Made by a program: the position numbers and the translations under genes. Below are positions 4,043 through 19,794 of a DNA stretch of 19,794 bases, in pieces (within the stretch, counting starts at the first letter, position 1; every line of letters starts with the position of its first letter). The stretch comes from a bacterium. GTDB taxonomy: Bacteria > Chloroflexota > Dormibacteria > UBA8260 > Bog-877. The notes below the pieces were generated by a model. That model saw only the letters and a list, made by a program, of their open reading frames with translations, was not told the origin of the DNA and ran no database searches. Location of the stretch: assembly GCA_021791455.1 (NCBI GenBank), contig JAJYWM010000092.1, forward strand, positions 1 through 19,794. Reading direction: 5' to 3'.

Positions 4043-4089
4043 CCGCGTCCCGGCCCGCGGGGGCGGCCATTCCGCGCTCGACAGCGGCG

Positions 4090-5376: not shown

Positions 5377-5404
5377 GATGCGGAGCCTTCGCGAAATACC
5401 CTGG

Positions 5405-5413
5405 TGCTATACT
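5405..5413 (+). promoter_or_regulatory. extended -10 promoter element for tatA
   Basis: TGCTATACT is an extended -10 box (TG, one base, TATACT, five of six matches to TATAAT). It lies in the 75-base gap between hemL and tatA, about 39 bases before the tatA ATG. The -35 position about 17 bases upstream is weak, which extended -10 promoters tolerate. It would start a separate tatA-tatC-rph-rdgB transcript. This is a motif-based prediction. Confidence 0.5.
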
Positions 5414-5451
5414 CCGGGCGGTTTCGGTACTTTCTCAATGAGGCGCTTGCC

Positions 5452-5730: not shown

Positions 5731-5752
5731 TCGCCTCGGACCACCAGTCGAC

Positions 5753-6547
5753 ATGGCCACCCGCCGGGTAGGCTGGCGGGGAGGAGCCCGTGGTCAGGTT
5801 GGGGGAGAGTCGCCCGCGGCCGACCGTGAGCTCACCCTGGTGGAGCATCTCGAGGATCTCCGCCGGGCCATCATCTGGAGCCTCATCGCCTGGGGCATAA
5901 CCACCAGCGTCGCGTTCGTCTTCAATCAGCGCCTGATCGCGATCCTGGAGCGGCCCCTGCATCTTGCCCTCCAGCACACCCACTCGCCGTTCGGGCAGAG
6001 GGTCGTCGTCACCAGTCCGCTCCAGGGCCTGGCCATCCCCATCGAGGTGGCCGCCGTGGCAGGAGTGATCCTGGCGCTTCCGGTCATCGTCTGGCAGCTG
6101 TGGCGATTCGTGGCTCCGGGCCTGCGGTCGACCGAACGCCACCTGGCGTTCCCATTCGTATTCGGGACCCTCTTCTTCTTCGCCCTGGGCGGGTTGTTTG
6201 CCTATTTCGTGATCCCGATCGGGCTCACCTTCCTTGCCACCTTCTTGGGCAGCAATGCCGTCTACCTGCCGGACCTCGGAGCCTACCTCTCGTTCCTGGC
6301 CCTGGTCGTCCTCATCTTCGGGATCACCTTCGAGATGCCGGTCGCGCTATGCTTGCTGGCCGCAGTCGGGGTCCTCAGCAGTGAGCAATTGAAGCGCTGG
6401 CGCAAGGCCGCCATCTTCGTGATCATCCTGGCGGCTCTGTTGATCACCCCAGGGGCCGACCCGTTCACCCCCACGTTCCTATCGATCGCCCTGATCCTGT
6501 TCTATGAGGGGAGCATATTGTTCATCCGCCACGCACTTCACCGCTGA
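5753..6547 (+). CDS. tatC: Sec-independent (twin-arginine) translocase subunit TatC
   Basis: TatC is the polytopic membrane receptor for twin-arginine signal peptides. It has 264 residues with six predicted hydrophobic segments. The family cytoplasmic signature LTLVEHLEDLRRAI is near residue 28, with Glu in the HLEDLR motif. Later come LPVIVWQLWRFVAPGL and the conserved ITPGADPFTP in the last third. The first ~27 residues are charged and poorly conserved. No strong ribosome site precedes the ATG at 5753, so a start slightly downstream is possible. The stop shares a base with the rph ATG (TGATG). Confidence 0.95.
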   Translation: MATRRVGWRGGARGQVGGESPAADRELTLVEHLEDLRRAIIWSLIAWGITTSVAFVFNQRLIAILERPLHLALQHTHSPFGQRVVVTSPLQGLAIPIEVAAVAGVILALPVIVWQLWRFVAPGLRSTERHLAFPFVFGTLFFFALGGLFAYFVIPIGLTFLATFLGSNAVYLPDLGAYLSFLALVVLIFGITFEMPVALCLLAAVGVLSSEQLKRWRKAAIFVIILAALLITPGADPFTPTFLSIALILFYEGSILFIRHALHR

Positions 6548-7272
6548 TGGCGCGCCAGGACGGCCGCGGGGACGAACAGGCCAGGCCGATCGCGATTGTG
6601 GTCGAGCAGGACAGCTGGGCGGAGGGTGCCGTGACCATATCCCTGGGAGGGACAAGGGTGATCTGCACTGCGACCGTCGAGGAGAGGGTGCCACCGCACC
6701 GCCGCGGCACAAGAGCGGGGTGGGTCACCGCGGAGTACGCGATGCTGCCCCGCTCCACCCACGAGCGCAGTCCCAGAGAACGCGGGGGCCGAGTCGATGG
6801 GCGCTCCCAGGAGATCCAGCGCCTGGTGGCACGGTCGCTGAGGGCGGCGGTCGACATGCACAGGCTCGGTGAACGCACCGTGATCGTCGACTGCGACGTC
6901 TTGAGGGCGGACGGAGGCACCAGGACAGCCTCGATATCGGGAGGGTTCGTCGCGCTGGCCCTGGCCTGCCGACGCCTGATGGCGGCTGGGATGGTGAGAT
7001 CTCAGCCGATCACAAGGCAGATCGCAGCCATCAGTGCTGGACTGGTGGATGGGCGCCCGCTCGTCGACCTCGACTACGGCGAGGATAGCCGGGCATCGAC
7101 GGATCTCAACCTGGTGATGACAGGAGAGCTCGAGATCGTGGAGATCCAGGGTACGGCGGAGGGAGGGACCCTGGCTCAGGATCAGCTCCTGTCCCTGCTT
7201 GGTCGGGCCCAGACAGGGATTGGAGAGGTGCTGCGGGCACAGCGACTGCTGTTGGATGGAGAGCCCGGGTGA
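6547..7272 (+). CDS. rph: ribonuclease PH
   Basis: A phosphorolytic 3'-5' exoribonuclease that trims tRNA 3' ends; the family forms hexameric rings. It has 241 residues, the usual size. Motifs are GGTRVICTATVEERVPP, WVTAEYAMLPRSTHERSPRER (the Arg-rich tRNA-binding and active-site segment), GRSQEIQRLVARSLRAAVD, TVIVDCDVLRADGGTRTASISG (phosphate-site Thr-Arg-Thr) and LVDLDYGEDSRASTDLN with catalytic acids. IQGTAEGG follows. The ATG shares a base with the tatC stop. The stop overlaps the rdgB GTG (GTGA). The rph-rdgB pair is a common bacterial arrangement. Confidence 0.97.
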   Translation: MARQDGRGDEQARPIAIVVEQDSWAEGAVTISLGGTRVICTATVEERVPPHRRGTRAGWVTAEYAMLPRSTHERSPRERGGRVDGRSQEIQRLVARSLRAAVDMHRLGERTVIVDCDVLRADGGTRTASISGGFVALALACRRLMAAGMVRSQPITRQIAAISAGLVDGRPLVDLDYGEDSRASTDLNLVMTGELEIVEIQGTAEGGTLAQDQLLSLLGRAQTGIGEVLRAQRLLLDGEPG

Positions 7273-7925
7273 CGGAGGGTCCGGCGGGTGTGCCGACGGT
7301 GCCACCAACAAGGGTCGAGAAGGTGGTGCTGGCTACCAGAAACCGAGGCAAGTTGGGAGAGCTGACCCGCCTGTTGGCTGGGCTTCGGTGGAACCTGGTT
7401 GCCCTCGACCAGTGCCCGCGCGGTGCTCAGGTGTGCTGGAAGGAGGATGGCGCCACCTATCAAGAGAATGCGGCCATCAAGGCCTGGGCCACGGCCCGTG
7501 GCACGGGCCTTGCCGCACTCGCTGACGATAGCGGCCTGGAGCTTGACGCCCTGGCGGGCTGGCCAGGCCTCCACACCGCGCGCTGGATGGGTGGTCAGGC
7601 AACCAGCGAGGAGTTGCTGCAGGGGATCGCGAAGAGGGTGGCCCAGCTGGCCCCGGACCGCCGCGGTGCCACATTCCGTTGCGTGCTTGCCTACGCGCCC
7701 CTTCTCCCCGAGAGGAGCGCCCCGGTGTTTGCGGAGGGCACGCTGAGGGGCACCCTGCTGAGCGTGCCGCGCGGGAACAACGGATTCGGCTACGACCCCA
7801 TCTTCGTTCCCAGTGGGTACTCAAGGACCCTGGCCGAGATGGAGGAAGTGGAGAAGGACTCCATCAGCCATCGCGGGCTCGCCGCCCGGGCCATGGTTGC
7901 GGCGGTTCTCAATAGCTCGATCTGA
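7269..7925 (+). CDS. rdgB: non-canonical purine NTP pyrophosphatase (RdgB/HAM1 family)
   Basis: Hydrolyses ITP, dITP and XTP to monophosphates, cleaning the nucleotide pool. It has 218 residues. Motifs are VVLATRNRGKLGEL near residue 19, DGATYQENAAIKAWA, ADDSGLELDALAGWPGLHTARW, GNNGFGYDPIFVPSGY, and DSISHRGLAARA near the C-terminus. These are the substrate- and metal-binding signatures of the family. The GTG at 7269 overlaps the rph stop by four bases. The first ~15 residues (Pro/Val-rich) are extra relative to most family members, but no internal start is clearly better. Confidence 0.96.
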   Translation: MTEGPAGVPTVPPTRVEKVVLATRNRGKLGELTRLLAGLRWNLVALDQCPRGAQVCWKEDGATYQENAAIKAWATARGTGLAALADDSGLELDALAGWPGLHTARWMGGQATSEELLQGIAKRVAQLAPDRRGATFRCVLAYAPLLPERSAPVFAEGTLRGTLLSVPRGNNGFGYDPIFVPSGYSRTLAEMEEVEKDSISHRGLAARAMVAAVLNSSI

Positions 7926-8014
7926 CCGATTTCGAATTGAGAGGCCGCGATCGCATCAGCGGGAACAATAAGATGGCAGCGGCACTTACGCGCTGGTGCC
8001 AGGGTAGGGCCGCA

Positions 8015-8086
8015 CGGGGCGTGGTGCAGGGGTAGCACGCCACTTTTGGGAAGTGGAGGTCGCAGGTTCGAATCCTGCCGCCCCGA
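8015..8086 (+). tRNA. tRNA-Pro (anticodon UGG)
   Basis: The 72-base cloverleaf is complete. The acceptor stem CGGGGCG (8015-8021) pairs with CGCCCCG (8079-8085), and the discriminator A is at 8086. The D stem is GTGC/GCAC and the anticodon stem CCACT/AGTGG. The loop TTTGGGA has anticodon TGG at 8047-8049, and the T arm is GCAGG-TTCGAAT-CCTGC. The C1:G72 pair with A73 is typical of bacterial proline tRNA. CCA is not encoded. Confidence 0.97.
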
Positions 8087-8129
8087 GGCTGCTCCCGGAG
8101 CCGGTGCTGTGCCGCGTCGTCCGGCCGGG

Positions 8130-8882
8130 TCAGTCCAGCGCTTGGGGGACGCTTAACGGTGGGTGTTCCAGGTGCCGAGCGGTGGCTCTGCCGCTCTTGT
8201 TGACTCGATCCACCAACTCGCTGGCGATTGCCACGGATCGGTGCTTGCCCCCGGTGCATCCAACCGCCACCCTGAGCACTGACCTGCGCTGGGAGCGGTA
8301 CAGGGGAACCAGATCCAGCAGCATCGGCAGGAAGCTGTCAACCAGCGTCTGGGCGCCCGGCTGCGACATCATGTGACGCCTGACCGCGGGGTCGCTGCCC
8401 GGCAGGTCCCTCATCTCGGGAACCCAGTAGGGGCTGTCCAGGAAGCGCGTGTCGACCACCCAGTCCGCCTCGGCTGGAAGCCCATAACGGAATCCGAAGG
8501 TGAAGAAATCCACCTGCACCTGTTCCCGGTCGCGCCAGTCATCCAGTAGCTGTCGCAGGTAGGCCGCGCTCGTCTGGTTGAGGCTCAGCACGCGCCGGTG
8601 GGGCTCGCGCACCGGTTGCGCCAATCCGGCGGCCTCGGGGGAGCCCACTGTCAGCAGCCAATAGCGGGTGTCAGTCTGGTCGAACTCCCTGATCCACTCG
8701 CTCCCAGCCCGCTCGCTGGCGACGACTGCCAGGTCCGGATGCTGGGCCAGCGCTCGCCCCACGGTGAGACTGCGGTCCCCTCCGGGGTTGCCCAGGTTGA
8801 GCAGGGCGTAGCCCGCTTCCTGGGTGAGACCCTCCAGCGCCTCTCTGAACCTTTCCTCACCGACGACAACTACCAGCGACAT
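8130..8882 (-). CDS. rapZ: RapZ/YvcJ-family protein with degenerate NTPase domain
   Basis: RapZ proteins bind RNA or nucleotide signals through a C-terminal domain; in E. coli RapZ steers RNase E to GlmZ. The C-terminal domain is well preserved here: FFTFGFRYGLPAEADWVVDTRFLDSPYW (residues 126-153) and GCTGGKHRSVAIA (208-220). The N-terminal domain normally starts with a Walker A loop after the first beta strand. Here the sequence runs MSLVVVVGEERFREALEGL with no Gly-x-x-x-x-Gly-Lys-Ser/Thr, so ATP binding is probably lost. The start at 8882 has GGAG eight bases upstream on the minus strand and matches the family's first strand. A frame extension to 8960 adds 26 low-complexity residues and is rejected. 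Length is 250 residues, against about 285-300 for the family. Confidence 0.88.
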   Translation of the reverse strand: MSLVVVVGEERFREALEGLTQEAGYALLNLGNPGGDRSLTVGRALAQHPDLAVVASERAGSEWIREFDQTDTRYWLLTVGSPEAAGLAQPVREPHRRVLSLNQTSAAYLRQLLDDWRDREQVQVDFFTFGFRYGLPAEADWVVDTRFLDSPYWVPEMRDLPGSDPAVRRHMMSQPGAQTLVDSFLPMLLDLVPLYRSQRRSVLRVAVGCTGGKHRSVAIASELVDRVNKSGRATARHLEHPPLSVPQALD

Positions 8883-9032
8883 CGCAAATACTCCGAAGCG
8901 GCCTATCCAATCGCTGGCAGATTCAGCCTCCCCGCTGCATCCGCCGGCGGCGTCTTCCATTCTGGGCCGCTACACCTCAAAAATGGAAGGCCCGGGCGCG
9001 ACTCTCAGTTAGCGCTCAGCTGCAGCTAGGGC

Positions 9033-10247
9033 TCAGCTCAGGCGCCGATCGAGCTCCGTGGCGAGGCTCCCGATGAAATCCTCGCTGGTGAGCCACGGGG
9101 CGTCCGGTCCGATCAGGAGAGCCAGATCCTTGGTCATGCGGCCTCCCTCCACGGTATCGACGCAAACTTCCTCCAGGGTCCTGGCGAAACGCACCACCTC
9201 GGGCGTGCCGTCCAACTCCCCCCGATGGGCAAGGCCCCTGGTCCAAGCGAAGATCGAGGCAATGGGATTGGTCGAGGTCGGCAGTCCCTTTTGGTGTTGG
9301 CGGAAGTGGCGTGTAACGGTACCGTGCGCGGCCTCCGCCTCCATGGTGCGGCCGTCGGGGGTGAGCAGGACGCTGGTCATGAGCCCCAGGGATCCATAGC
9401 CCTGAGCCACGGTGTCGGACTGGACGTCGCCGTCATAGTTCTTGCAGGCCCAGACGTAGCCACCTTCCCACTTCAGCGCGGCCGCCACCATGTCGTCGAT
9501 CAGGCGGTGCTCATAGGTGAGGCCCGCGGCGACAAACTGCTCTTTGAACTCGCTGTCGAATATCTCCTGAAAGATGTCCTTGAAGCGACCGTCATAGGCC
9601 TTGAGGATGGTGTTCTTGGTGGACAGGTAGACGGGATATCCGCGTCGCAGGCCATAGCTGAACGAGGCGCGCGCGAAGTCCCTGATGGAGGAGTCGTAGT
9701 TGTACATTCCCAGCGCCACGCCGCCTTCGTCGAAACGGGCGACCTCCATCTCCATGGGCTTGCTGCCGTCGTCGGGGGTGTAGGTGATGGTCACCCGGCC
9801 GGGGCCCGGAACCACAAAGTCGGTCGCCCGGTACTGGTCCCCGTGGGCGTGGCGGCCGATGACTATCGGCTTGGTCCAGCTGGGAACTAGCCTCGGGATG
9901 TTGCGCATGACGATCGGCTCCCGGAAGATCACCCCGCCCAGGATGTTGCGGATGGTCCCGTTGGGTGACTTCCACATCCGCTTGAGGCCGAACTCGCTGA
10001 CTCTCGCCTCGTCCGGGGTGATGGTGGCGCATTTCACACCCACCCCGCGCTGGGCGATGGCGGTGGCGGCCTCGATGGTCACCTGATCGTCGGTGGCGTC
10101 GCGATTCTCAATTCCAAGGTCGTAGTAGTCCAAATCGACGTCCAGGTGGGGCAGGATCAGCTGATCCTTGATCATCTGCCAGATGATCCGCGTCATCTCG
10201 TCCCCGTCCAACTCGACCACCGGGCTGGCGACTCTAATCTTCGTCAT
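9033..10247 (-). CDS. icd: NADP-dependent isocitrate dehydrogenase (eukaryotic-type subfamily)
   Basis: Oxidatively decarboxylates isocitrate to 2-oxoglutarate in the TCA cycle, making NADPH. It has 404 residues and is close in sequence and numbering to the animal cytosolic/mitochondrial homodimeric enzymes. Isocitrate-binding residues are Thr77, Ser94, Asn96, Arg100, Arg109 and Arg132 ([13 protein letters not shown]). Metal-binding acids are Asp250, Asp273 and Asp277, with Lys210 on the other subunit's site. AHGTVTRH (306-313) contains the Arg-His pair that favours NADP. The ATG at 10247 is preceded by GAGGTG on the minus strand. The frame continues 86 codons further upstream, but that part has no family similarity. 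rapZ follows on the same strand after 150 bases. Confidence 0.96.
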
Positions 10248-10555
10248 GGCCACCTCAACTGGCGCCCAACCGGCGGGTCCACACTTGCGAGCCCTCCCTG
10301 TTAGACCAAATAGGTACTGTTCTGGCGCGCGCTGCCGGTCCTCGCCCCGTTGCAAGTCCGCCTCGCTCGGGGACAAGGGCCCGAGCCCGGGCGCCCGGTT
10401 CAGATTAGCGCAGGCGATGATCGTCGCGCCGCCGCCTGTCCGGGTTCTCGGCCTTGACAGCCGGGACTGATTGTCGACAAAATGTAATCGACCTCGGCGA
10501 ACCAATCTTGAGCCGTTGGGGTGACTGAGCCCATCATCATGGAGGCCGAACGGTC
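10248..10555. promoter_or_regulatory. divergent intergenic region between icd and the catabolic cluster
   Basis: These 308 bases separate the divergently transcribed icd and the first oxidoreductase gene. The right-hand part holds a TTGACA box and the candidate operator (10454-10487), listed separately. The ribosome site GGAGG is at 10541-10545. The left part must hold the icd promoter, but I see no box good enough to place it. No credible coding region is visible here. Confidence 0.6.
10454..10487 (+). promoter_or_regulatory. candidate GntR operator/promoter module, copy 1
   Basis: TTGACA (10454-10459) is followed after nine bases by GATTGTCGACAA (10469-10480), one base, and ATGTAA (10482-10487). 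The core TTGTCGACAA is a perfect ten-base palindrome of the TTGT-N2-ACAA form used by FadR/FCD-type GntR regulators. The same elements at identical spacing occur before the GntR gene at 16828. A weak -10 (CAAAAT, 18-base spacer) would lie within the palindrome and its flank, so binding would block transcription of the downstream oxidoreductase gene. Confidence 0.65.
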
Positions 10556-11689
10556 TTGCACAGAGTCGGAGTGATCGGCGCGGGTCGATGGAGCAGGACG
10601 GCGCACCTCCCCGCCTGGCGCCGAGATCCCCGCTGCCGAGTGATGGGGGTCTACGACTCGGACGGTTCGGTCGGGGCAGGCCTAGACCAGAGCTTGCGCG
10701 TAGGGTCCGCCAGTGAGCTGATCGACTCGCCGGATATCGACATTATCGATGTGGTCACCTGGAATCCCAGTCACTACGAGTACGCGGCGGCGGCCATTGC
10801 GGCTGGCAAGCACGTGCTCTGTGAAAAGCCCGTCCACCATGACTACCGGCGGACCAAGGCGCTGAGCGACTTGGCCCGCTCGAGGGGACTGCGCACCAAG
10901 GTTGGGTTCACCTTCAGGTTCAGTCCCGCCATGATGCGGATGAAGCAGCTGATTGATGAGGGCTTCATCGGGCGGCCCCTGGTCTTCAACGGATTCGAGC
11001 AGAACTCCCAGTTTCTCGACCCTGGCACTCCGATGAGGCTGGGCGAGACCACGACCACCGAGGACGGTCAGCTGAGAGCGGCGTCCCTGGAAGGATATGG
11101 GGCTCCCATCATCGACCTCGGGCTCTGGTTCGTCGGGGATGACCTGGCCGAGGTGGTCGGCCTGCTGACGAATCAGGTGTTCGAACGGGTCGTTCCCGGT
11201 CATGACCACCCGGTGCCTGTCCCTCTGGATGACGCGGACTGCTTCATCGGGCGATTCCGTGCCGGAGCGATGGCCACCGTGCAAAGCAGCTACGTCACAG
11301 TGGGCAACTATCCCGGCCTCGAGGCCCGGCTCTACGGTACGGAGGGAGCGCTCATCTGTCGCCTGGTGGAGGAGAAAGGAGTGTGTGAGCGGCTCTGGGG
11401 GGCCACAAAGGCCTCTGTTGAGTTCGAGCCGCTCCCGATTCCGGAAGAGCTGTTTCCTGCTGGAGGATCGCTCCAGGAGCCCTGGCCGACCTCCTTCTAC
11501 TCCAACCTGGTGAGCGACTTCCTGGACGACATCGAAGCTCCCGAGAGGGTGGGCGGTGGGACGTTCGCCGACGCGGCCAGGGTGCAGGAGGTCATCGATG
11601 CAGTGGAGCTGTCGCACCGGCAGCATGCCTGGGTGACCTTGCCCCTAGCCGCCGCTCAAGACATCTCCGGCTTGGATTCCGAATCATGA
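10556..11689 (+). CDS. Gfo/Idh/MocA-family oxidoreductase 1
   Basis: A predicted NAD(P)-dependent oxidoreductase of the glucose-fructose oxidoreductase/inositol dehydrogenase/MocA family, 377 residues. The Rossmann motif VGVIGAGRW is at residues 4-12 and the conserved cofactor/catalytic CEKPV at 89-93 (Lys91). The C-terminal sheet domain carries [13 protein letters not shown]. In the usual Asp-x-Gly-x-His active-site motif, Asp187 and Gly189 are kept but His is Trp191, so the chemistry may differ or be lost. It shares long identical stretches with the gene at 15640, so the two are paralogs. The start is TTG with GGAGG ten bases upstream; a stop at 10526 excludes any ATG start. It heads the cluster behind the operator module. 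The substrate is unknown. Confidence 0.9.
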
Positions 11690-11811
11690 AGTTGCAGGGA
11701 GCAGACCCCAAGACCCGGCCACACCTGGTCGAGGGAGGTCCCGGCCGGGGCCGAACGACCCACGCGGCTGCCGCCCTCCCCAGCGTCTGCGCGAAGGCGA
11801 GGCAGCGCTGA
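11686..11811 (+). CDS. possible small ORF, 41 residues, coupled at both ends
   Basis: This frame fills the gap between the first oxidoreductase and the hydroxyacid dehydrogenase. Its ATG overlaps the upstream stop (ATGA) and its TGA shares one base with the downstream ATG (TGATG). It encodes a basic peptide starting [14 protein letters not shown] and ending KARQR, with one Cys and no membrane segment. I recognise no family. The ribosome site is weak. The exact double coupling matches the style of the surrounding genes, but a chance open frame in GC-rich DNA is quite possible. It may act only to carry ribosomes to the next start. Confidence 0.3.
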   Translation: MKLQGADPKTRPHLVEGGPGRGRTTHAAAALPSVCAKARQR

Positions 11812-12854
11812 TGAGTGATGCGACCAGGCGTCGTGTCCTGATCACGACCTACCTGGAGCCCGCCCTCATCGAGGGCCTCCGGGCTCAGTTACCTGAGCTC
11901 GAGATCCTGGTTCCCTGGGACCTCTTGGAGCTGCCCAGGTATGACGCCGAGCACCGTCTGCCCCGCGCGGAAAGTGACGGGGCCAAGAGGACATGGCGCG
12001 AGCTGATCGGGTCGGCTGAGATCCTCTTCGACTTCGGCCCAGCCTTCATGCACCCGGAGCTGGGGACGACAACCGGCCTGCGCTGGATTCAGGCGACCTC
12101 GGCCGGGGTTGGCCAGCTTGTCCATCGGATCGGTCTGGACCAGCCCGGCACCCCCATCGTCACCACCGCCAGGGGTGTACACGGACGGGCTCTCGCCGAG
12201 TTTGTGGTCATGGGGCTGATCGCGCTCAACCGTGACCTCCCGCAGACCCTCAGGGACCAACAAGCCAGACGTTGGGTGCGAGGCTCCGGCCGCCTCATTC
12301 GTGACCAGAAGGTAGGGATCCTGGGGCTCGGGAGCATAGGACGAGAGGTGGCCGGCCTGCTCGGCCACTTCGGCGCCCACACGATCGGCATTGTCCGTTC
12401 GCTTCAGGGGCGGGAGCCGGCTGCTCTTGGAGTTGATGAGCTGCATCCGCAATCGGCTCTCGACGAGCTTCTGCCCCGGCTTGACTGCTTGGTCCTGAGC
12501 TGTCCCCACACCCCCGAGACGGAAGGGATCATGGACCAAAGCAGGCTTGCGCTGCTGCCCCAGTCCGCCGTCCTCATCAACATCGCCAGGGGTCAGGTGG
12601 TTGACGAGCCGGCCCTGATCAGGCGGCTGGCGGAGCAGAGGCTAAGAGGGGCCGTCCTCGACGTCGCGGCGACCGAACCCCTGCCCGCGGACAGCCCCCT
12701 GTGGAGTCTGCCCAACGTCATCATAAGTCCCCATTCAGCCAGCACGGTGATTGGCGAAAACCAAGCGATCGCAGAACTGTTCGCCAGCAACCTCAGGGCG
12801 TATCTGGAGCGCCGGGAGCTCGTCAACGTGCTCGACAAGGGGCGTCTGTACTGA
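11811..12854 (+). CDS. D-isomer-specific 2-hydroxyacid dehydrogenase
   Basis: A predicted NAD(P)-dependent enzyme that interconverts 2-keto acids and D-2-hydroxy acids, 347 residues. The Rossmann motif GILGLGSIGREVAG is at residues 169-182. The catalytic triad is Arg260 (NIARGQVVDE), Glu289 (ATEPLP) and His308 (ISPHSA), all intact. The second strand of the Rossmann fold ends in IVRS (Arg196) rather than an acidic residue, which suggests NADP(H) preference, as in glyoxylate/hydroxypyruvate reductases. The ATG at 11811 has GAGG (11799-11802) a few bases upstream. The next gene starts at or within 20 bases of its stop. In this cluster it could reduce a keto-acid product; the substrate is not predictable. 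Confidence 0.93.
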   Translation: MSDATRRRVLITTYLEPALIEGLRAQLPELEILVPWDLLELPRYDAEHRLPRAESDGAKRTWRELIGSAEILFDFGPAFMHPELGTTTGLRWIQATSAGVGQLVHRIGLDQPGTPIVTTARGVHGRALAEFVVMGLIALNRDLPQTLRDQQARRWVRGSGRLIRDQKVGILGLGSIGREVAGLLGHFGAHTIGIVRSLQGREPAALGVDELHPQSALDELLPRLDCLVLSCPHTPETEGIMDQSRLALLPQSAVLINIARGQVVDEPALIRRLAEQRLRGAVLDVAATEPLPADSPLWSLPNVIISPHSASTVIGENQAIAELFASNLRAYLERRELVNVLDKGRLY

Positions 12855-12856
12855 AG

Positions 12857-13708
12857 GTGGTTACTGCGAACGTGGAAGCGCTGGTCCGAGTCGCGGTCGA
12901 GGGACAGGTGAGCCATCCGGGCCTGCGCGGAAACTTCACCGTAGGCTTCGATGACCGCCCCCAGATGCGCCCCGGCATGGCCGGGGTGACGGTCAACTTG
13001 CGAATCGGCGACCGGGCTCTCGGCTGGCAGTGTGATCATGGAGAGCCAGGGGTTTCGGCTGAAGGACCAAGCCCCAACCGCCACCTTGCCCTGCAGGTGC
13101 TGGCGGCTCTTGGGAACCGCGTTCGCATGACCTCCGGACTGGCTCAGGGCGCGATTGGCACTGTCACAGGGAAGCACGCCTTCGTCCTTATCGACTTCCC
13201 GGCCGACGTTCTGGCGGAGATCTGTCCCGGCGATCGCCTGGTCGTTGAAGCATGGGGCCAGGGTCTGCAGCTGCTGGACCACCCTCGGGTCACGGTCCGC
13301 AACCTCGGGCCGGAGCTGCTCGGCGCGCTGAAATTTGAGTCTGACGACGGCTGCGGGCTGACGGTGCCGGTGGTGGCCAGCCTTCCCGCCCGCGTCATGG
13401 GAGCAGGTATCGGCATGAGTTCCGAGTGGGCGAACTGCGACGTGATGTTGCACGATGCCGCCCTGGTCGATGAACTGGGGCTGGCGAATCTTCGCCTCGG
13501 GGATCTGGTCGTCATGGAAGAGCAGGATCACCGATATGGGCGATGCTTTCGCTCGGGATGGACCTCGGTTGGAGTCGTCGCTCATGCCCTGGGCCCCACC
13601 CCCGGGCACGGGGTGGGGGTGGTCACCATCCTCACCGGACCTGCGGCTGACCTGGGGACCCGTGCCGACCCCGGAGCAAATGTCGGCGACCTTCTGGGAT
13701 TGCGCTGA
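12857..13708 (+). CDS. DUF4438-family protein A (function unknown)
   Basis: Resembles the DUF4438 family, whose best-known member is a Thermotoga protein of solved structure but no assigned function. It has 283 residues from GTG 12857. Family-like segments are CDHGEPGVS (59-67), GAIGTVTGKH (98-107), VLIDFPADVLAEICPGD (110-126), EAWGQGLQLLDHP (131-143), VPVVASLPARVMGAGIG, LRLGDLV and PGHGVGVVTILTG (249-261). The first ~155 coding bases of a longer frame from 12701 lie inside the preceding gene and are not conserved. GTG 12857 or GTG 12872 (GAAGGTGG 12 bases upstream) is the likely start. The stop overlaps the ATG of a paralog (ATGA). Conserved His residues (61, 142, 251) hint at metal or ligand binding. 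Confidence 0.82.
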   Translation: MVTANVEALVRVAVEGQVSHPGLRGNFTVGFDDRPQMRPGMAGVTVNLRIGDRALGWQCDHGEPGVSAEGPSPNRHLALQVLAALGNRVRMTSGLAQGAIGTVTGKHAFVLIDFPADVLAEICPGDRLVVEAWGQGLQLLDHPRVTVRNLGPELLGALKFESDDGCGLTVPVVASLPARVMGAGIGMSSEWANCDVMLHDAALVDELGLANLRLGDLVVMEEQDHRYGRCFRSGWTSVGVVAHALGPTPGHGVGVVTILTGPAADLGTRADPGANVGDLLGLR

Positions 13709-14598
13709 TGGCTGACCGGGACAACGCAGACCTCTTGGTGGAGACCCGGGTAATGGGTCAGGTGACGAGCCCTGAGCTGTCGGGGGGTGTCTACGCCGTC
13801 GACAGCTCAGGGTTGCCGTTCGTACCGATCGGCAGCGGGGGGATCAAGTACAACGTCAAGGTTGGCATGTCCGCCTTCGGATGGGCCGGGGACCAGGTCG
13901 AGCCCGGAGTGAGCCTCGCCCATCCTCAAGCCGCGGCCAATGCCGCTCTCAGCACGTTTGCGTGCGTGGGGAACACGGTTCAGGTCAGAACCGGGATGGC
14001 TGCGGGGGCTCTCGGGACCGTCACCGGCAAGCACGAGGAGTTCGTGACCTACCAACACGTTCTGGTCGACTTCGATGAAGAGACTCTCGCCAAGCTCTGT
14101 CCCGGTGACCAGGCGGTGGTCAGGGCTCACGGCACCGGGCTCGCCTTGGCGGACGCAAGCGATGTCACGCTGCACAGTTTGGATCCCGGCCTGTGGCGCA
14201 AGCTCACCCGCCCCGCACGCGGCCAGGCGCTAGTCGAGATCCCTGTGGTGGCGGTCGTGCCCCCACATCTGGTGGGAATCGGAAGCGGCCGACTAAGTGC
14301 CGCCACTTCGATATGCCTGCAATTGGGATGCCGGGACGACCTTGGCCAACTTGGGTTGGATGACCTGCGTCTCGGAGACCTGGTAGCCGTCACCGACTGG
14401 GACGGTCGCTACAACACCGGGTACCGTCCCGGGGCGATGCTGATCGGTTGTGTGTCGACAGGTACGAGCCGCCTGGCGGGCTACGGTCCCAGCCTCACCA
14501 TCCTGGCGTCCGGCCGGGGGGGCCAACTTGGCGCAACCATCGATCCTGAGGCGAACATCGCACGTCTGCTGGCTGTCGGGACCTGGCGGCAGCCGTGA
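13708..14598 (+). CDS. DUF4438-family protein B (function unknown)
   Basis: A 296-residue paralog of the preceding gene, collinear along its whole length. Shared blocks are EPGVS (65-69), GALGTVTGKH (100-109), VLVDFDEETLAKLCPGD (118-134), VPVVA-like IPVVAVVPPHLVGIGSG (178-194), DLRLGDLVAV and LTILASG. Several positions that are His in protein A differ here: Gln63 for His61, Ala150 for His142, Tyr259 for His251. It also has GTG for GQG. The core TGKH is kept. The start ATG overlaps the stop of protein A, so equal, coupled production and a heteromeric complex are plausible. The stop overlaps the next start (TGATG). Function is unknown; it is predicted cytoplasmic, with no signal or membrane segment. 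Confidence 0.82.
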   Translation: MADRDNADLLVETRVMGQVTSPELSGGVYAVDSSGLPFVPIGSGGIKYNVKVGMSAFGWAGDQVEPGVSLAHPQAAANAALSTFACVGNTVQVRTGMAAGALGTVTGKHEEFVTYQHVLVDFDEETLAKLCPGDQAVVRAHGTGLALADASDVTLHSLDPGLWRKLTRPARGQALVEIPVVAVVPPHLVGIGSGRLSAATSICLQLGCRDDLGQLGLDDLRLGDLVAVTDWDGRYNTGYRPGAMLIGCVSTGTSRLAGYGPSLTILASGRGGQLGATIDPEANIARLLAVGTWRQP

Positions 14599-15611
14599 TG
14601 GCAGACGTGGACCGCTCCATCAGCTCCAGTGACGAGTGGGATATAGGCCTGGACTGGGCCATCCTGGGGACAGCCAACATCGCCCGCGGCAACTTCATTC
14701 CGGCACTGCGGGTCGCCGGCGGGCGCGTGGTGTGTGTGGGCAGCCGCGATGTCGAAAGGGCGACTGCGTTCATCGCCGAACAACGGCTTGAGGCCAAAGC
14801 CTGCACCTATGAGCAGGCCCTGGCCGACCCCCATGTGCAAGCCGTATATGTGGCTCTCCCCAATCACCTGCATGCGCAGTGGGCGGAGGCCGCCCTGGCG
14901 GCCGGGAAAGCGGTGCTTTGCGAGAAACCGCTGGGCCGTGACGGCGCCGAGGTCTCGCGGATCCTGGCCCATGCCGAGTCCAACCGAGGGCCTCTGTGGG
15001 AGGCTTTCGCATTTCCATTTCATCGCCAATGGGAGCGGCTGGTGTCCCTGGTCGACGGCGGAGCGGTTGGCGATCTGCGCGAGATCCACTCTAACTTCCA
15101 CTTCCGGGTTCGCGACCCCAGCAACATTCGTTGGGAGGCCGCGATGGCGGGCGGGGCCCTCAACGACGTGGGGTGCTACCCAATCCACCTGGCCAGACTT
15201 CTGTTTGGCTCCGAGCCAACTCGGTCCAAGGCGCTCTTTCTGCCCGGAGGCAGAGGCGTTGACGCTGAGAGCCAGGGGGTGCTCGACTTCGGCCGCGGGC
15301 GACGCCTGATCTTCAGCTGCGGAATGACCCGTTGGCGCGACAGTTCAACTCGGGTGATCGGCACAGACGGCGAAATTCGTTTGACCGACCCCTACCATCC
15401 CAACCCTGAGGACAGCCTCAGCCTGGTTGTGGCTGGGCGCATGACCGTTGAACGATTGGTGGCACCGGAACCATCGTTCTCCGCGATGCTGCGGGCGATC
15501 TCCACTTCCATCAAGGGTCGCTCCCTGCCTTCGCACCTGGCTCGGGACGACAGCCTGGGGACCGCGGCAGCCCTGGAGTTGGTCAAGGCTACTTGGGAGC
15601 CGTGGGATTGA
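14598..15611 (+). CDS. Gfo/Idh/MocA-family oxidoreductase 2
   Basis: A 337-residue NAD(P)-dependent oxidoreductase of a different branch from the other two in the cluster. The Rossmann motif is AILGTANIARGNF (residues 21-33, with Thr-Ala-Asn instead of a strict GxGxxG) and LCEKPLGRD is at 107-115 (Lys110). The active-site segment GGALNDVGCYPIHLAR (185-200) has Asp190 and Tyr194. This Asp-x-Gly-x-Tyr form is typical of glucose-fructose oxidoreductase, 1,5-anhydrofructose reductase and dihydrodiol dehydrogenase relatives, where Tyr acts as acid/base. WEAFAFPFH fits the same branch. ATG 14598 is preferred; a GTG lies directly before it at 14595. The catalytic set looks complete. The substrate is probably a sugar-like or cyclic polyol compound (inference). 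Confidence 0.9.
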   Translation: MADVDRSISSSDEWDIGLDWAILGTANIARGNFIPALRVAGGRVVCVGSRDVERATAFIAEQRLEAKACTYEQALADPHVQAVYVALPNHLHAQWAEAALAAGKAVLCEKPLGRDGAEVSRILAHAESNRGPLWEAFAFPFHRQWERLVSLVDGGAVGDLREIHSNFHFRVRDPSNIRWEAAMAGGALNDVGCYPIHLARLLFGSEPTRSKALFLPGGRGVDAESQGVLDFGRGRRLIFSCGMTRWRDSSTRVIGTDGEIRLTDPYHPNPEDSLSLVVAGRMTVERLVAPEPSFSAMLRAISTSIKGRSLPSHLARDDSLGTAAALELVKATWEPWD

Positions 15612-15639
15612 GCGCAAGGAGAAGCGCAGGAGGAAACCG

Positions 15640-16806
15640 TTGAGCGACAACCTGAGAGTGGCGGTGATCGGCGCGGGGAGGTGGTCCAGTCGGGCCCATC
15701 TACCGGGGTGGCAGCGCTGCCCCGGAGTCGATATAGCGGTGGTCTGCGATCTTGACCTCTCCTTGGCACAGCGACGCTCCGCCGAGTTCGGTGCGGAATC
15801 CGCTGCCACCGACTACCAAGAGGTTATCGCTCGAGCCGACGTTGACATAGTGGACGTCTGCACACGCGACGAGCATGACCCGATTGTCTTCGCCGCGCTG
15901 GAGGCGGGCAAGCACTGCCTGACCGAGAAGCCGGTGGCTCACCGGGCCGCGGACGTCTGGCGGGCGGCCGGACTGGCTCGGGAGCGAGGCGTCAAGACCA
16001 AAGTGGGGCTTACCTTTCGCTATGCACCTGCGATCGCCTACATGCGCGAGCTGATTCAGGATGGCTTCTGCGGCACCCCATTCGTGTTCAACGGCTATGA
16101 ACAGAACAGCCAGTGGTTGGACCCGGACAACCCGGCGGACAAGAGGATCCTGAAGGAACCCGCCGGGGACGACCCGGTGGGGGGATGGTCGCCACTGGAA
16201 GAGGAGATAACCGTCTCCTCCTTAGAGGGATACGGCGCCCCAATCATCGACATCGGCCTCATGAGCACAGGAGGCGAGGCCAAGGAGGTGGTCGGGGTGC
16301 TGAAGAATTTCGTCAAGGAGAGACGTCGCACCAATCTGCACCAGGAGCGCGAACGGATCAACATCGATGATGGCGACGTCTTCATCGCCAAACTCGACAA
16401 CGACGCTGTCATGACCATCCAGAGCAGTTATGTCACGGTCGGCAACTACCCAGGGGTGGAGGCCCGCCTGTACGGCGACAGGGGTGCGCTCATCTGTCGG
16501 ATCGTCGACGAGAACGGGGAGTGGCAGCGCCTTTGGTCGGCGTCGGCGGATCAGGTCGAGTTTCAGCGCATGGAGATCCCCTCCCGCCACTTCCCGCCGG
16601 GGTACGTCCCCGGGCATGGCTGGGAGGAGACGTGCTACGGCAACCTCATCAAGAGCTTTGTCGACGAGATCTCAACCGGGGGCACGGAAAACCAGGGCGA
16701 CTTCGTTGCTGGCGCCAAGGTGCAAGAGATCATCAACGCGGTCGAGCGCTCCCACCGCAGCCGAGCCTGGACCGAGGTCTTCCACCCCCAGAGCAACTCC
16801 AGGTGA
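15640..16806 (+). CDS. Gfo/Idh/MocA-family oxidoreductase 3 (paralog of oxidoreductase 1)
   Basis: A 388-residue NAD(P)-dependent oxidoreductase. The Rossmann motif VAVIGAGRW is at residues 7-15 and TEKPV at 95-99 (Lys97). It shares near-identical stretches with the gene at 10556: [27 protein letters not shown] and [19 protein letters not shown]. The motif Asp204-x-Gly-x-Met208 lacks the usual catalytic His, as in that paralog. An insertion relative to the paralog lies around residues 165-190. The start is TTG 15640 with a perfect AGGAGG six bases upstream. An open frame extends to 15448 but overlaps the preceding gene and is not family-like. The regulator gene follows 61 bases downstream. 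Confidence 0.9.
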   Translation: MSDNLRVAVIGAGRWSSRAHLPGWQRCPGVDIAVVCDLDLSLAQRRSAEFGAESAATDYQEVIARADVDIVDVCTRDEHDPIVFAALEAGKHCLTEKPVAHRAADVWRAAGLARERGVKTKVGLTFRYAPAIAYMRELIQDGFCGTPFVFNGYEQNSQWLDPDNPADKRILKEPAGDDPVGGWSPLEEEITVSSLEGYGAPIIDIGLMSTGGEAKEVVGVLKNFVKERRRTNLHQERERINIDDGDVFIAKLDNDAVMTIQSSYVTVGNYPGVEARLYGDRGALICRIVDENGEWQRLWSASADQVEFQRMEIPSRHFPPGYVPGHGWEETCYGNLIKSFVDEISTGGTENQGDFVAGAKVQEIINAVERSHRSRAWTEVFHPQSNSR

Positions 16807-16827
16807 GATCAGATGGTAGCGCCACGG

Positions 16828-16865
16828 TTGACAAAGGCTGCCGATTGTCGACAACATGTAAACAT
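16828..16865 (+). promoter_or_regulatory. candidate GntR operator/promoter module, copy 2
   Basis: TTGACA (16828-16833), nine bases, GATTGTCGACAA (16843-16854), one base, ATGTAA (16856-16861). This matches the copy at 10454 in sequence and spacing. The second element extends to ATGTAAACAT, an imperfect inverted repeat (ATGT-AA-ACAT) centred 11 bases, one helical turn, from the centre of the TTGTCGACAA palindrome. This would allow two dimers side by side. The module ends two bases before the regulator ATG, consistent with autoregulation. Confidence 0.68.
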
Positions 16866-16867
16866 CC

Positions 16868-17602
16868 ATGACTGAGGAAGAGGCTCGTCCGATCGCGCTC
16901 GAGGTCGTCCACCAGCGCAGCCTCTCTGAGGAGGTTGCCGACCGCATCCGGGAAGGCATAGTGACGGGCGCCTTCAAACCTGGCCAGCACCTGCGTGAGG
17001 TGGACTTGGCGGAAGCGCTGGAAGTCAGCCGGAGCCCGGTTAGGGATGCGTTTGCGCAGCTTCATCACGAGGGCCTGGTGACCGTCAGGCGCCACCGCGG
17101 CGCGGTGGTGGTCGGGCTGAGCTCGGACGACATAGAGGACCTCTACAGCCTGCGGAGGAGCCTGGAAGGGCTGGCGGTGCGATTGGCGACGGAGCGCGCT
17201 ACCCCTGACGAGCTAGACCAGATGCGGGAACTCGGATCCGGCAGCGGGCTGCAGCCGGCAGCGCTCAAACCGCGCCAGTTCGCGGAGGCGGACATCGCCT
17301 TCCACGATCTGCTCTACCAGGCAGCTCATCATGCCCGGCTCTATGCCTGCTGGTCGATGTTGCGCCCTCACGTCTTCCGCTTTCTCCTCACCCGCAACAT
17401 CGCCGAGTCCGACTACGAGGCGATCTTCATCGGGGAGCACGCGGCTCTGGCGGAAGTCATCTCCAGCCGCTCCGCCGAGGCGGCGACCGAGATGATTGCG
17501 GACCATTTGGAGGGGTCGCACAGCCGCCTGGTCAAGCATTACCCGACAGATGGGGGCATGGGCCAGGCGCGAGGCGGGAAGAACGCCGGGGAGGGCCGCT
17601 AG
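16868..17602 (+). CDS. GntR-family transcriptional regulator, FadR/FCD subfamily
   Basis: A DNA-binding regulator of 244 residues, probably responding to a small organic acid or sugar-derived ligand of this pathway. The winged helix (about residues 15-85) shows SEEVADRIREGIVTGAFKPGQHLRE and the recognition region LAEALEVSRSPVRDAFAQLHHEGLV. The FCD ligand domain follows. Its metal-binding set is visible as Asp142 and His146 (ADIAFHDLL), His191 (EHAAL) and His213 (DHLEG). ATG 16868 comes two bases after the operator and has no Shine-Dalgarno sequence, so the message is probably leaderless. It likely represses itself and the cluster headed by the oxidoreductase at 10556. The last ~20 residues are low-complexity. 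Confidence 0.94.
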   Translation: MTEEEARPIALEVVHQRSLSEEVADRIREGIVTGAFKPGQHLREVDLAEALEVSRSPVRDAFAQLHHEGLVTVRRHRGAVVVGLSSDDIEDLYSLRRSLEGLAVRLATERATPDELDQMRELGSGSGLQPAALKPRQFAEADIAFHDLLYQAAHHARLYACWSMLRPHVFRFLLTRNIAESDYEAIFIGEHAALAEVISSRSAEAATEMIADHLEGSHSRLVKHYPTDGGMGQARGGKNAGEGR

Positions 17603-17686
17603 ATGGCGGCAGCCAACTCGAGTCAGTGTTGGGGGGCTTAGCCAGGGTGGGCCAGGACCCGGGATGTGACCTACGAGATCCAGCCT

Positions 17687-17698
17687 CCCACCGGTGGG
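17687..17698. repeat. 12-base perfect palindrome between regulator and lipoprotein genes
   Basis: CCCACCGGTGGG reads the same on both strands. It lies in the 209-base gap before the solute-binding lipoprotein gene and could be an operator. GC-rich chance is also possible. The remainder of this gap shows no clear promoter boxes and only very short open frames. Confidence 0.35.
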
Positions 17699-17782
17699 GC
17701 GTGGCCCCTGGGAAGCGCGGACCTTGGCGACAGGGCGGGCGTATCGGAGCACGACGGCGGAGTGGACGGTGAGTTGTAGAAG

Positions 17783-17794
17783 GGCAGATCTGCC
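17783..17794. repeat. 12-base perfect palindrome abutting the lipoprotein ribosome site
   Basis: GGCAGATCTGCC is a perfect inverted repeat directly followed by the ribosome site AAGGAGGT (17795-17802). A protein bound here, or RNA structure at this place, could control expression of the transporter gene. It is unrelated in sequence to the TTGTCGACAA operator. Confidence 0.4.
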
Positions 17795-17811
17795 AAGGAG
17801 GTTCATTTCCA

Positions 17812-19638
17812 GTGATCAACGCGATTAGGGCCCTCGGCCACCGTCGGATGCAGCGGCGATGGCAGGTGACGGCGCTGCTGGCGGCGGCGGCCTTCCTGCT
17901 CACCTCGTGCGCCAGCAGCGCGACCAGCACCGGCACCTCGGCCCAGAGCGGTGGCACCGCCACCTTCGCTGAGACCGCCGGCCTGCCGCCACCCTGGATC
18001 TTTCCGCTGTACCCCGCCACCGACTTCACCGTGCAGTTCCAGAGCCAGTTCGAGTACCTGATGATCCCCCCCCTGTACCAGTTCGGCAGCGGGACGTCGC
18101 CGGCCATCAACTACAGCATCAGCCTGGCCTATCCTCCGATCTATCAGGACGGGGACACCCAGGTCGTGATCAAGCTGAAGCACTACGTCTGGTCCGATGG
18201 GACCCCGGTCACCGCTCGTGACGTCACCTTCTGGATGAACGAGCTGCGGGCCGAGAAGCTGAATTGGGCCGCCTATGTGCCCGGGTCCTTTCCGGACAAC
18301 GTGACCTCGATCAAGGTCAACAACGCCTACGAATTGACCTTCACTTTGAACAAGGCCTACTCGCCCACCTATTTCACCGACAATGAGCTGGCCCAGATCA
18401 CTCCCATGCCGCAGCAGGCGTGGGACAAGGAGAGCGCCAACGGGGCCGTGGGCAACTACGACGAGACGACCGCGGGCGCCAAGGCGGTCTTCAATTTCCT
18501 CAACGGTCAATCCAAGGACATCGCCACCTACTCCTCCAACCCACTTTGGAAGGTGGTGGACGGTCCCTGGAAGCTGACCACCTTCCTCAACAGCGGCTAT
18601 GTGGTGATGGAGCCCAACCGCTCGTACAGCGGGCCCGACAAAGCCCACCTCTCCAAGTTGGTGTTCCTGCCCTTCGACAGCGAGGTCGCCGAGGTCAACG
18701 CCCTCAAGGCCGGCACCGTCGACGTCGGCTATCTGCCCACAACCGACGCGGGCCTGCGCACCTCGCTGAAGGCCCAGGGATACACCTTTGGCCTCTGGCC
18801 CACGTACGGGTTCAACTCGCTCATGATCAACTTCCACAACCCGACGGTGGGCGCGGACTTTCAGCAGCTGTACATCCGACAGGCTCTGGAGCGACTGATC
18901 AACCAGCCTGAGTGGATCAAGACGGCCCTGGCAGGTTACGGCCAGCCCGACTACGGTCCGGTGGTGAACGGCACGCCTCAGCTGACGGCTCCCATCGAGA
19001 GCCCGAGCAAGTATCCCTATTCGTACAGTTCCACGGCCGCGAAGGATCTTCTCCGGAGCCACGGGTGGTCGATCGTCCCAGGGGGGGTGGACACCTGCAC
19101 CTCGCCGGGGACCGGCAGCAACCAGTGCGGGGCCGGAATCGCCGGTGGCAGCAAACTCTCCTTCAACCTGATCTACCAGGACAACTACGCCGCAGGACTT
19201 CTGGAGATGGAGGAGTACAAGTCAACCGCAAGTCAGATCGGCGTCCAGATCAATCTGACCAGCAGCACATTCGCGTACGCAGAGGCCGTGCCGTGCTCCA
19301 GCTCCCAAGCGTCCTGCAGTTGGCAGATCGACGACTGGGGCGGGGGGATCTACACGCTCCCCTACTACCCGCCCGGAGGTGGCTACTTCGCCTGCAACGG
19401 AGCGCTCAATGCCGGCAGTTACTGCAGCAGCAAGGAGGTCAGCCTGTCGGATGCGGCCAAGGCCCCCGGCGGCAGCCTCATCCCCTGGGAGACCTATGTC
19501 GCCCAGCAGCTGCCAATGCTGTGGATACCCAATGCTGACTACCTTTTGCTTGAGGTGAAGAGCAATTTGCGGGGAGTGCTGCCCGCCAACCCGCTGCTCT
19601 CGATCTATCCCCAAGACTGGTACTTCGCCAACAAATAG
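17812..19638 (+). CDS. ABC transporter solute-binding lipoprotein, family 5 (peptide/oligosaccharide type)
   Basis: Captures a solute outside the membrane for an ABC importer; 608 residues. The signal peptide has Arg residues, a hydrophobic stretch (about 18-30) and the lipobox LLTSC with Cys33 as lipid anchor, followed by a Ser/Thr-rich linker. The family-5 signature VIKLKHYVWSDGTPVTARDVTFWMNEL is near residue 125, and ALKAGTVDVGYLP and LYIRQALERLINQPEW follow. Family 5 binds peptides but also oligosaccharides in several lineages. The only other cysteines form three close pairs in the last third: 429/439, 495/502 and 528/538, probably disulfides. The start is GTG 17812 with AAGGAGGT nine bases upstream. 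With catabolic oxidoreductases upstream, a sugar-like ligand is more likely than a peptide (inference). Confidence 0.92.
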   Translation: MINAIRALGHRRMQRRWQVTALLAAAAFLLTSCASSATSTGTSAQSGGTATFAETAGLPPPWIFPLYPATDFTVQFQSQFEYLMIPPLYQFGSGTSPAINYSISLAYPPIYQDGDTQVVIKLKHYVWSDGTPVTARDVTFWMNELRAEKLNWAAYVPGSFPDNVTSIKVNNAYELTFTLNKAYSPTYFTDNELAQITPMPQQAWDKESANGAVGNYDETTAGAKAVFNFLNGQSKDIATYSSNPLWKVVDGPWKLTTFLNSGYVVMEPNRSYSGPDKAHLSKLVFLPFDSEVAEVNALKAGTVDVGYLPTTDAGLRTSLKAQGYTFGLWPTYGFNSLMINFHNPTVGADFQQLYIRQALERLINQPEWIKTALAGYGQPDYGPVVNGTPQLTAPIESPSKYPYSYSSTAAKDLLRSHGWSIVPGGVDTCTSPGTGSNQCGAGIAGGSKLSFNLIYQDNYAAGLLEMEEYKSTASQIGVQINLTSSTFAYAEAVPCSSSQASCSWQIDDWGGGIYTLPYYPPGGGYFACNGALNAGSYCSSKEVSLSDAAKAPGGSLIPWETYVAQQLPMLWIPNADYLLLEVKSNLRGVLPANPLLSIYPQDWYFANK

Positions 19639-19651
19639 CTCAACCCTCCTC

Positions 19652-19680
19652 GGTCGCCAGCCCAACGGGGGCTGGCGACC
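19652..19680 (+). terminator. hairpin after the lipoprotein gene
   Basis: GGTCGCCAGCCC (19652-19663) pairs perfectly with GGGCTGGCGACC (19669-19680) around a five-base loop, starting 13 bases after the stop codon. The 12-base-pair stem is strong, but no T-run follows. It may be a partial terminator or an RNA-stabilising hairpin that lets the binding protein be made in excess over downstream transporter subunits, a common pattern in ABC importer operons. Confidence 0.55.
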
Positions 19681-19734
19681 ACTCGAGGGGCGCGGTTGCG
19701 CAGTCCGACCGCCATTTGGGAGGAATCATCTACT

Positions 19735-19794
19735 GTGAATGCAAATGTGCCAGGCGGGCCAAGGTCCTGGGGCTGGCTTGACGATGAGGCAGCG
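19735..19794 (+). CDS. start of a further gene, cut by window end (possibly ABC permease)
   Basis: A GTG at 19735 is preceded by GGGAGGA (19718-19724) ten bases upstream, much like the ribosome site of the lipoprotein gene. The frame is open for all 20 remaining codons, starting MNANVPGGPRSWGW. No family can be recognised from so few residues. Position after a solute-binding protein suggests a transporter subunit, but this is only context. Confidence 0.45.
   Translation, partial: MNANVPGGPRSWGWLDDEAA

Follow-up and report, generated by a model that had tools for sequence, protein, structure and literature searches.

Units that link a regulator to more than one Gfo/Idh protein are known from the inositol (iol), rhizopine (moc) and levoglucosan routes, a feature that the gene cluster described here shares with them. 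To our knowledge, DUF4438, D-2-hydroxyacid dehydrogenase and TldD/E have no part in these three routes. Among solved structures, DUF4438 was found in one protein only, TM1086 of Thermotoga maritima (PDB 3dcl, 3n99); we know of no function for DUF4438 or TM1086 despite these structures, and our open-access literature search returned no paper using the name DUF4438 and none joining TldD with DUF4438. For the FadR subfamily of GntR regulators, the operator consensus is given as TNGTNNNACNA (PMC9145765); AnsR of Corynebacterium glutamicum, a member of this subfamily, has the GntR and FCD domains that are also present in the regulator of our cluster. Here, we report a gene cluster at positions 10454-19794 of a 19,794-nucleotide (nt) stretch of Chloroflexota DNA (contig JAJYWM010000092.1 of assembly GCA_021791455.1, class Dormibacteria; the whole stretch is called the window below). 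Two adjacent DUF4438 genes, copies A and B, stand in it among oxidoreductase, regulator and binding-protein genes, and the unit is real and conserved. We tentatively read it as a single GntR/FCD-controlled catabolic regulon of Chloroflexota for a peptide-like amino-acid conjugate.

The operator was found twice in the window. A TTGACA box at 10454, where the cluster starts, and another at 16828 are each followed by GATTGTCGACAA, one ahead of Gfo1 and the other ahead of the GntR gene, and the 18-mer ATTGTCGACAAnATGTAA is exact at 10470-10487 and 16844-16861; 200 shuffles gave no match to this 18-mer with up to three mismatches permitted. The exact palindrome TTGTCGACAA occurs in 10 copies in the 273,321 bp of 20 loci that bear a DUF4438 pair (window included) versus none in the 326,606 bp of 20 control loci, one of which, L071, shares about 2 kb with the pair-bearing locus L050. 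Over a set of 18 loci, the 10 observed copies compare with a mean of 0.15 (largest 2) in approximate dinucleotide shuffles, and 19 other palindromes built from the same half-site letters gave zero copies. TTGACA precedes the palindrome by 10-11 nt in seven of the 10 copies, those of L050, L051 and L053 included. L051 has the palindrome 14 nt upstream of GntR and 49 nt upstream of Gfo1. In L050 it stands ahead of a short-chain dehydrogenase (SDR) gene and ahead of GntR, in L053 and L070 ahead of a lipoprotein gene, and in the Deinococcota loci L066 and L068 between the divergent copy A and GntR genes. A two-mismatch form, within GGTCGACAATATACT, stands ahead of Gfo1 in five relatives; the remaining pair-bearing loci have no exact copy. 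As a conserved palindrome before the GntR gene, with a spacer one base less than that of the subfamily consensus, TTGTCGACAA is the predicted operator, and the cluster is very probably regulated as one unit.

A preliminary description of this DNA, made from its letters alone, had named three Gfo/Idh/MocA oxidoreductases, a D-2-hydroxyacid dehydrogenase (D2HDH), two DUF4438 proteins, a GntR/FCD regulator and a family-5 solute-binding lipoprotein (SBP5) as one regulator-linked cluster, its middle genes bound into one unit by overlapping starts and stops. A profile scan found all eight genes in the same order and on the same strand, each above its curated Pfam cut-off. Genes 2-5 do touch or overlap: the D2HDH stop at 12854 is followed by the GTG of copy A at 12857, and the next contacts are TGATG at 13706-13710 and GTGATG at 14595-14600. 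The link to one regulator likewise agrees with an operator that stands before both units of the window and recurs in relatives. The features are as follows.

10454-10487, plus strand: promoter/operator 1, TTGACA with the following repeat, upstream of Gfo1 (repeated in the window; recurs in L050, L051 and L053)
10556-11689, plus strand: Gfo1, Gfo/Idh/MocA oxidoreductase without the canonical catalytic His (PF01408, 78.7 bits; PF22725, 42.9 bits)
11811-12854, plus strand: D2HDH (PF02826, 2-Hacid_dh_C, 169.7 bits)
12857-13708, plus strand: DUF4438 copy A, probable site-bearing subunit, with a presumed GTG start at 12857 (PF14505, 129 bits; PF20999, 116.1 bits)
13708-14598, plus strand: DUF4438 copy B, diverged partner (PF14505, 140.9 bits; PF20999, 93.9 bits; structure model)
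14595-15611, plus strand: Gfo2, Gfo/Idh/MocA oxidoreductase with D-V-G-C-Y (Pfam match and alignment)
15640-16806, plus strand: Gfo3, paralogue of Gfo1, with a presumed TTG start and AGGAGG upstream (Pfam; the longer ORF from 15448 was scanned)
16828-16861, plus strand: promoter/operator 2, in front of the GntR gene (repeat of operator 1)
16868-17602, plus strand: GntR/FCD regulator (PF00392, 65.4 bits; PF07729, 83.8 bits)
17812-19638, plus strand: SBP5 lipoprotein (PF00496, SBP_bac_5, 138.3 bits)
19652-19680, plus strand: stable hairpin after the lipoprotein gene with a 12-bp stem, possibly a partial terminator (96-nt region, z -4.25)
19735-19794, plus strand: opening 20 codons of a further gene, probably a TldD-type metallopeptidase (frame VNANVPGGPRSWGWLDDEAA; position in relatives)

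Both domains of copies A and B lie above the DUF4438 cut-offs of 24.9 (PF14505) and 27 (PF20999). In Gfo1, Gfo2 and Gfo3 both the Rossmann domain PF01408 and a C-terminal domain of the Gfo type score above cut-off, which places them in the superfamily, and the helix-turn-helix domain of GntR together with the FCD domain places the regulator in the FadR subfamily. D2HDH combines PF02826 with the Arg/Glu/His motifs INIARG, ATEPLP and SPHSA (positions 256, 287 and 306), which we take to be its catalytic motifs, and the lipoprotein carries a lipobox-like LLTSC.

The order Gfo1-D2HDH-copy A-copy B-Gfo2-Gfo3 is unbroken in six further Chloroflexota genomes of one class (G290, G276, G144, G382, G152 and G240), at about 50-82% identity to the window. 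The contigs of G290 and G276 go on to the GntR and SBP5 genes, and in G276 an SDR gene stands ahead of GntR. Next to Gfo3, G240 has a more distant lipoprotein gene (42%); its orthologue of the window lipoprotein is on a different contig. In G387, D2HDH and both DUF4438 genes lie where the contig ends, next to a distantly related SBP5 gene, and G538 has the pair with SDR, Gfo1, SBP5 and Gfo3 in a different order. Among 110 genomes of G290's class, which are related and whose counts are not independent samples, DUF4438 occurs in 10, in two copies each, and Gfo3 relatives (E<=1e-60) occur in eight, all within those 10; the two DUF4438 genomes without such a relative are the variants G355 and G537. 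In a sample of the phylum, six of 301 genomes hold Gfo3 relatives at E<=1e-90, and all six hold a DUF4438 pair. The closest organism-named Gfo3 relative among the matches listed is P0126 from Candidatus Dormibacteria (78%).

The DUF4438 pair is asymmetric. In a tree of 51 proteins, for which the program warns of long branches, all 18 second copies fall into one clade (support 98/92), and the main groups (window type; L001, L047 and L076; Deinococcota) appear in both halves with small internal differences. The simplest reading of this tree would be one old duplication followed by joint inheritance of A and B; transfer between phyla may also be involved. In the numbering of copy A, D60, H61, E63, H107, D195, H243, H251 and R283 are invariant in single and A copies, and R229 is nearly so; H61, E63, D195, R229 and R283 are replaced in most B copies. 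Copy B of the window has Gln 61, Glu 63, Cys 195, Thr 229, Thr 243, Tyr 251 and Gly 283. From the residue types, one may guess a metal site in copy A. The predicted structure of copy B (pLDDT 90.5) has TM1086 as its sole significant structure match and shares its fold.

The genes beside the pair are of a recurrent kind. Two cut pairs are not counted: L002, where N masks the second copy, and L069, at a contig end. D2HDH lies directly upstream of copy A in 11 of the 18 pairs, i.e., the window, L048-L053, L070, L001, L047 and L076, the last three called by phmmer similarity (70-91 bits), and an Ldh_2 dehydrogenase lies directly downstream of copy B in the six Deinococcota pairs L063-L068. A 2-hydroxyacid-type dehydrogenase is thereby a direct neighbor in 17 of 18 pairs, and L077 alone has neither type. 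Aminotransferases adjoin the pair or lie one gene away in L001, L047, L076, L063, L064, L065 and L067, and some pair-bearing stretches hold AstE/AspA, amidohydrolases, M24, M20, DHDPS, epimerase-type SDR, Gfo, SBP5 or DppBC. Because of these dehydrogenase, aminotransferase and peptidase-type neighbors, we assign DUF4438 to the part of an amino-acid-like catabolism that deals with 2-oxo/2-hydroxyacids. The surroundings of single-copy DUF4438 genes differ, ranging from SelB to xanthine-dehydrogenase-type and lar-type genes. At 1208-8112 of L036 (genome G257), one such gene lies beside Ni_insertion (LarC), NAD_synthase-like, AIRC, QRPTase and FAD_binding_2 genes, where we take the NAD_synthase-like protein to be LarE-like and AIRC to be LarB-like, the lar and nad names being our assumption. 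Among the DUF4438-bearing genomes, LarC was found in 11 of 13 with a single copy and in two of 19 with paired or cut-off pairs. A nickel-pincer (NPN)-dependent enzyme was considered for the paired DUF4438; LarC (PF01969) was found in none of the 10 paired genomes of G290's class.

All 20 cluster Gfo proteins that were aligned keep the EKP lysine. The His of the D-x-G-x-H signature is catalytic in Gfo/Idh/MocA enzymes; in Gfo1 and Gfo3 this signature is absent, with Pro at the His column in 14 of 14 sequences, the two of the window included (the Gfo1 motif was seen in eight Gfo1 sequences, and the column was compared with 4h3v, which reads GALGDIGAHIVD). Gfo2 has D-V-G-C-Y in six of six sequences and keeps the D..Y active-site pattern. 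The window Gfo3 is 47-52% identical to Gfo1 of five relatives, and most of the 120 Gfo3 relatives listed, from several phyla, are 57-66% identical. Neither described route was recognized by its equivalog profile: Gfo1, Gfo2 and Gfo3 score 90.8, 70.7 and 87.0 bits against the IolG profile TIGR04380 (cut-off 355) and 89.1, 57.4 and 104 bits against the levoglucosan dehydrogenase profile NF052479 (cut-off 650).

Gfo3 relatives also occur in six Deinococcota genomes without DUF4438 (L079-L084), in a recurring set of SBP5-DppB-DppC, a gene of 366-386 aa and the Gfo3 relative. By Pfam scans of one or two of these loci, the 366-386 aa gene is ketopantoate-reductase-like, and IclR and DUF885 are present; D2HDH lies on the other side of the cluster, with IclR where scanned. 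DHDPS and a Gfo2-like gene are found in L082 and L083, and, in the phylum sample, L078 (G001) has the order D2HDH-IclR-Gfo-DUF885, where DUF885 is presumably peptidase-like. These Deinococcota clusters again join a peptide-type importer to redox and 2-hydroxyacid enzymes.

A lipoprotein orthologue stands at the same place in L050 (72% identical) and L051 (77%). Lipoprotein relatives are numerous, at least 11 in each of G355, G537, G538 and G387. The window runs for 156 nt past the stop codon of the lipoprotein gene, and within this stretch another frame opens with a GTG at 19735, so more genes probably lie beyond the edge, as the preliminary description had supposed. A hairpin at the matching place in L051 (z -4.71) is likewise followed by a frame. 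In L050 and L051, outside the window, two PmbA/TldD genes follow the lipoprotein gene in tandem, with HEXXXH in the first and not in the second, the arrangement expected of TldD and TldE. In G290, G276, G152, G240 and G144 the gene immediately after the lipoprotein orthologue is TldD, the proteins being 62-63% identical to that of G290, and for this reason the window likely cuts off TldD; the gene at 19735 is probably TldD, its 20 codons being too short for a similarity test.

Taken together, the parts suggest the following pathway, in which peptide-like conjugate catabolism is, as a moderate inference on pathway class, preferred over a sugar or polyol route. The GntR/FCD regulator would repress the two promoters through TTGTCGACAA and be released by a pathway compound. 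The lipoprotein would capture an oligopeptide-like conjugate of an amino acid or short peptide with a sugar- or hydroxyacid-type part, and TldD/TldE, probably encoded just past the edge, would cut its amide bonds after import. The sugar-like part may be oxidized or reduced by the Gfo proteins, of which Gfo2 would work as an ordinary enzyme and Gfo1/Gfo3 as a non-canonical paralogous pair, and D2HDH may handle the 2-oxo/2-hydroxyacid product. On that side, copy A, with its conserved and possibly metal-binding site, and copy B, its diverged partner, could act as one two-subunit protein. With rather more reserve than for the regulon, we consider it possible that DUF4438 A/B is a new two-subunit enzyme (site-bearing plus degenerate), co-inherited in Chloroflexota and Deinococcota and acting on 2-oxo/2-hydroxyacid intermediates of an undescribed peptide-conjugate regulon in which Gfo1 and Gfo3 form a Gfo branch set apart from the canonical enzymes by its active site.

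Several points weigh against the pathway or its parts, besides the relatedness of the genomes counted above. The lipoprotein is only weakly similar to solved peptide-binding proteins (best E 6.6e-7), SBP_bac_5 proteins also carry sugars and other solutes, and no permease gene lies within the window, the flanking ORFs of L050 and L051 being scanned only partly. TldD-like proteins are common (58 of the 110 class genomes at E<=1e-40), and at the same threshold G538 and G387, whose lipoprotein is 60% identical, have no TldD match. The Gfo3 relative of G001 has D2HDH, IclR and DUF885 as neighbors on a different contig from DUF4438, and in 111 Deinococcota genomes DUF4438 (eight genomes) and Gfo3 relatives at E<=1e-40 (six genomes) do not overlap. 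As to the pair, the 18 first copies group with L002 and L069 apart from the 13 single copies with weak support (87/63); most B copies retain D60, and those of the window type retain H107 and, in slightly more than half of cases, H243 and H251. The solved relatives of Gfo2 include sugar 3-ketoreductase, 1,5-anhydrofructose reductase and glucose-fructose oxidoreductase, and because of these relatives and its D..Y pattern it is still likely that the substrate has a sugar part. E. coli TldD/E processes the microcin B17 precursor and does not feed catabolism (PMC5810440).

The last point also bears on another explanation, in which the cluster makes or matures a modified peptide and TldD/E serves as the maturation protease: TldD/E is a known protease in the processing of ribosomally synthesized and post-translationally modified peptides (PMC5810440). 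The binding lipoprotein and the GntR/FCD regulator would rather point to uptake and catabolism, and we hold maturation to be improbable. Slightly more improbable still is salvage of muropeptides or lactyl-sugars, a special case of the conjugate, in which TldD/E would cut the stems, D2HDH take a D-lactyl-type acid and the Gfo proteins the amino sugar. It would account for one unit holding a family-5 binding protein, a peptidase and a hydroxyacid enzyme of D specificity, the rest of its support being general knowledge. Against it, no MurQ-type etherase, deacetylase or kinase lies in the stretch of L050/L051 that was searched, from Gfo1 to the second TldD-type gene. That unrelated genes are merely adjacent in one genome has practically no probability left: nothing favors it, and because the order is kept in six relatives, the operators recur, and Gfo3 and DUF4438 co-occur in G290's class, the cluster is not local chance. 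The neighborhood comparison across genomes, proposed beforehand as the check, found DUF4438 with Gfo/Idh and GntR genes in several genomes and refuted such chance.

The preliminary description had favored remodeling of a modified sugar or polyol through alternating redox steps. In such a route, the lipoprotein would import a modified sugar or glycoside, the Gfo proteins would perform the redox steps, D2HDH would finish the sugar acid, and DUF4438 would take another step. Three Gfo/Idh proteins in one cluster suit this, and their solved relatives include scyllo-inositol/L-glucose dehydrogenase, sugar 3-ketoreductase, DgpA and 6a3f (a putative dehydrogenase, which we take to be levoglucosan dehydrogenase); DHDPS-type aldolases and a Gfo2-like protein in the Deinococcota Gfo3 clusters L082 and L083 are also in its favor. 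However, Pro replaces the catalytic His in Gfo1 and Gfo3, which makes the idea of three alternating sugar redox enzymes doubtful for these two. The inositol and levoglucosan equivalog cut-offs are missed, a peptidase pair adjoins the cluster in relatives, elsewhere the DUF4438 pair has aminotransferases, peptidases, amidohydrolases and dipeptide-type importers around it, and no kinase, aldolase or isomerase was found from Gfo1 to the second TldD-type gene of L050/L051. For the cluster as a whole, we regard a sugar or polyol route as rather doubtful.

Because its operator is defined, its regulator belongs to a known class and it includes a binding lipoprotein, the DUF4438 unit can be tested directly. 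Knowing either what the lipoprotein binds or what induces the regulator would reveal the pathway, and would also explain a Gfo/Idh branch with a rebuilt active site. The rest of the window (3-10247), judged from translations, holds a heme-synthesis run (hemA, hemC, hemD, hemB, hemL), a peptidyl-prolyl isomerase, tatA/tatC, rph, rdgB, a RapZ-like protein and icd on the minus strand; there is a tRNA-Pro at 8015-8086. The icd ORF start at 10505 looks over-long, and MTKIRVASP near 10247 is the likelier start.

The preliminary description knew of no characterised pathway with this gene set, and our literature searches likewise found none matching the cluster. Unlike the inositol and levoglucosan routes, the window misses the IolG and levoglucosan dehydrogenase equivalog cut-offs by hundreds of bits. 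Its predicted operator and those of AnsR and the FadR subfamily are inverted repeats with TGTC/GACA halves, and its TTGT-CG-ACAA spacing is one base shorter than the subfamily consensus (PMC9145765). The tandem of L050 and L051 resembles the E. coli TldD/TldE heterodimer in having HEXXXH in one subunit (PMC5810440), and differs from it in that the pair stands in a catabolic-type unit with a binding lipoprotein and does not reach the NCBIfam TldD cut-offs. Every component family is already known, and the DUF4438 A/B pair is the truly unknown part; the window has two diverged DUF4438 copies adjacent to each other.

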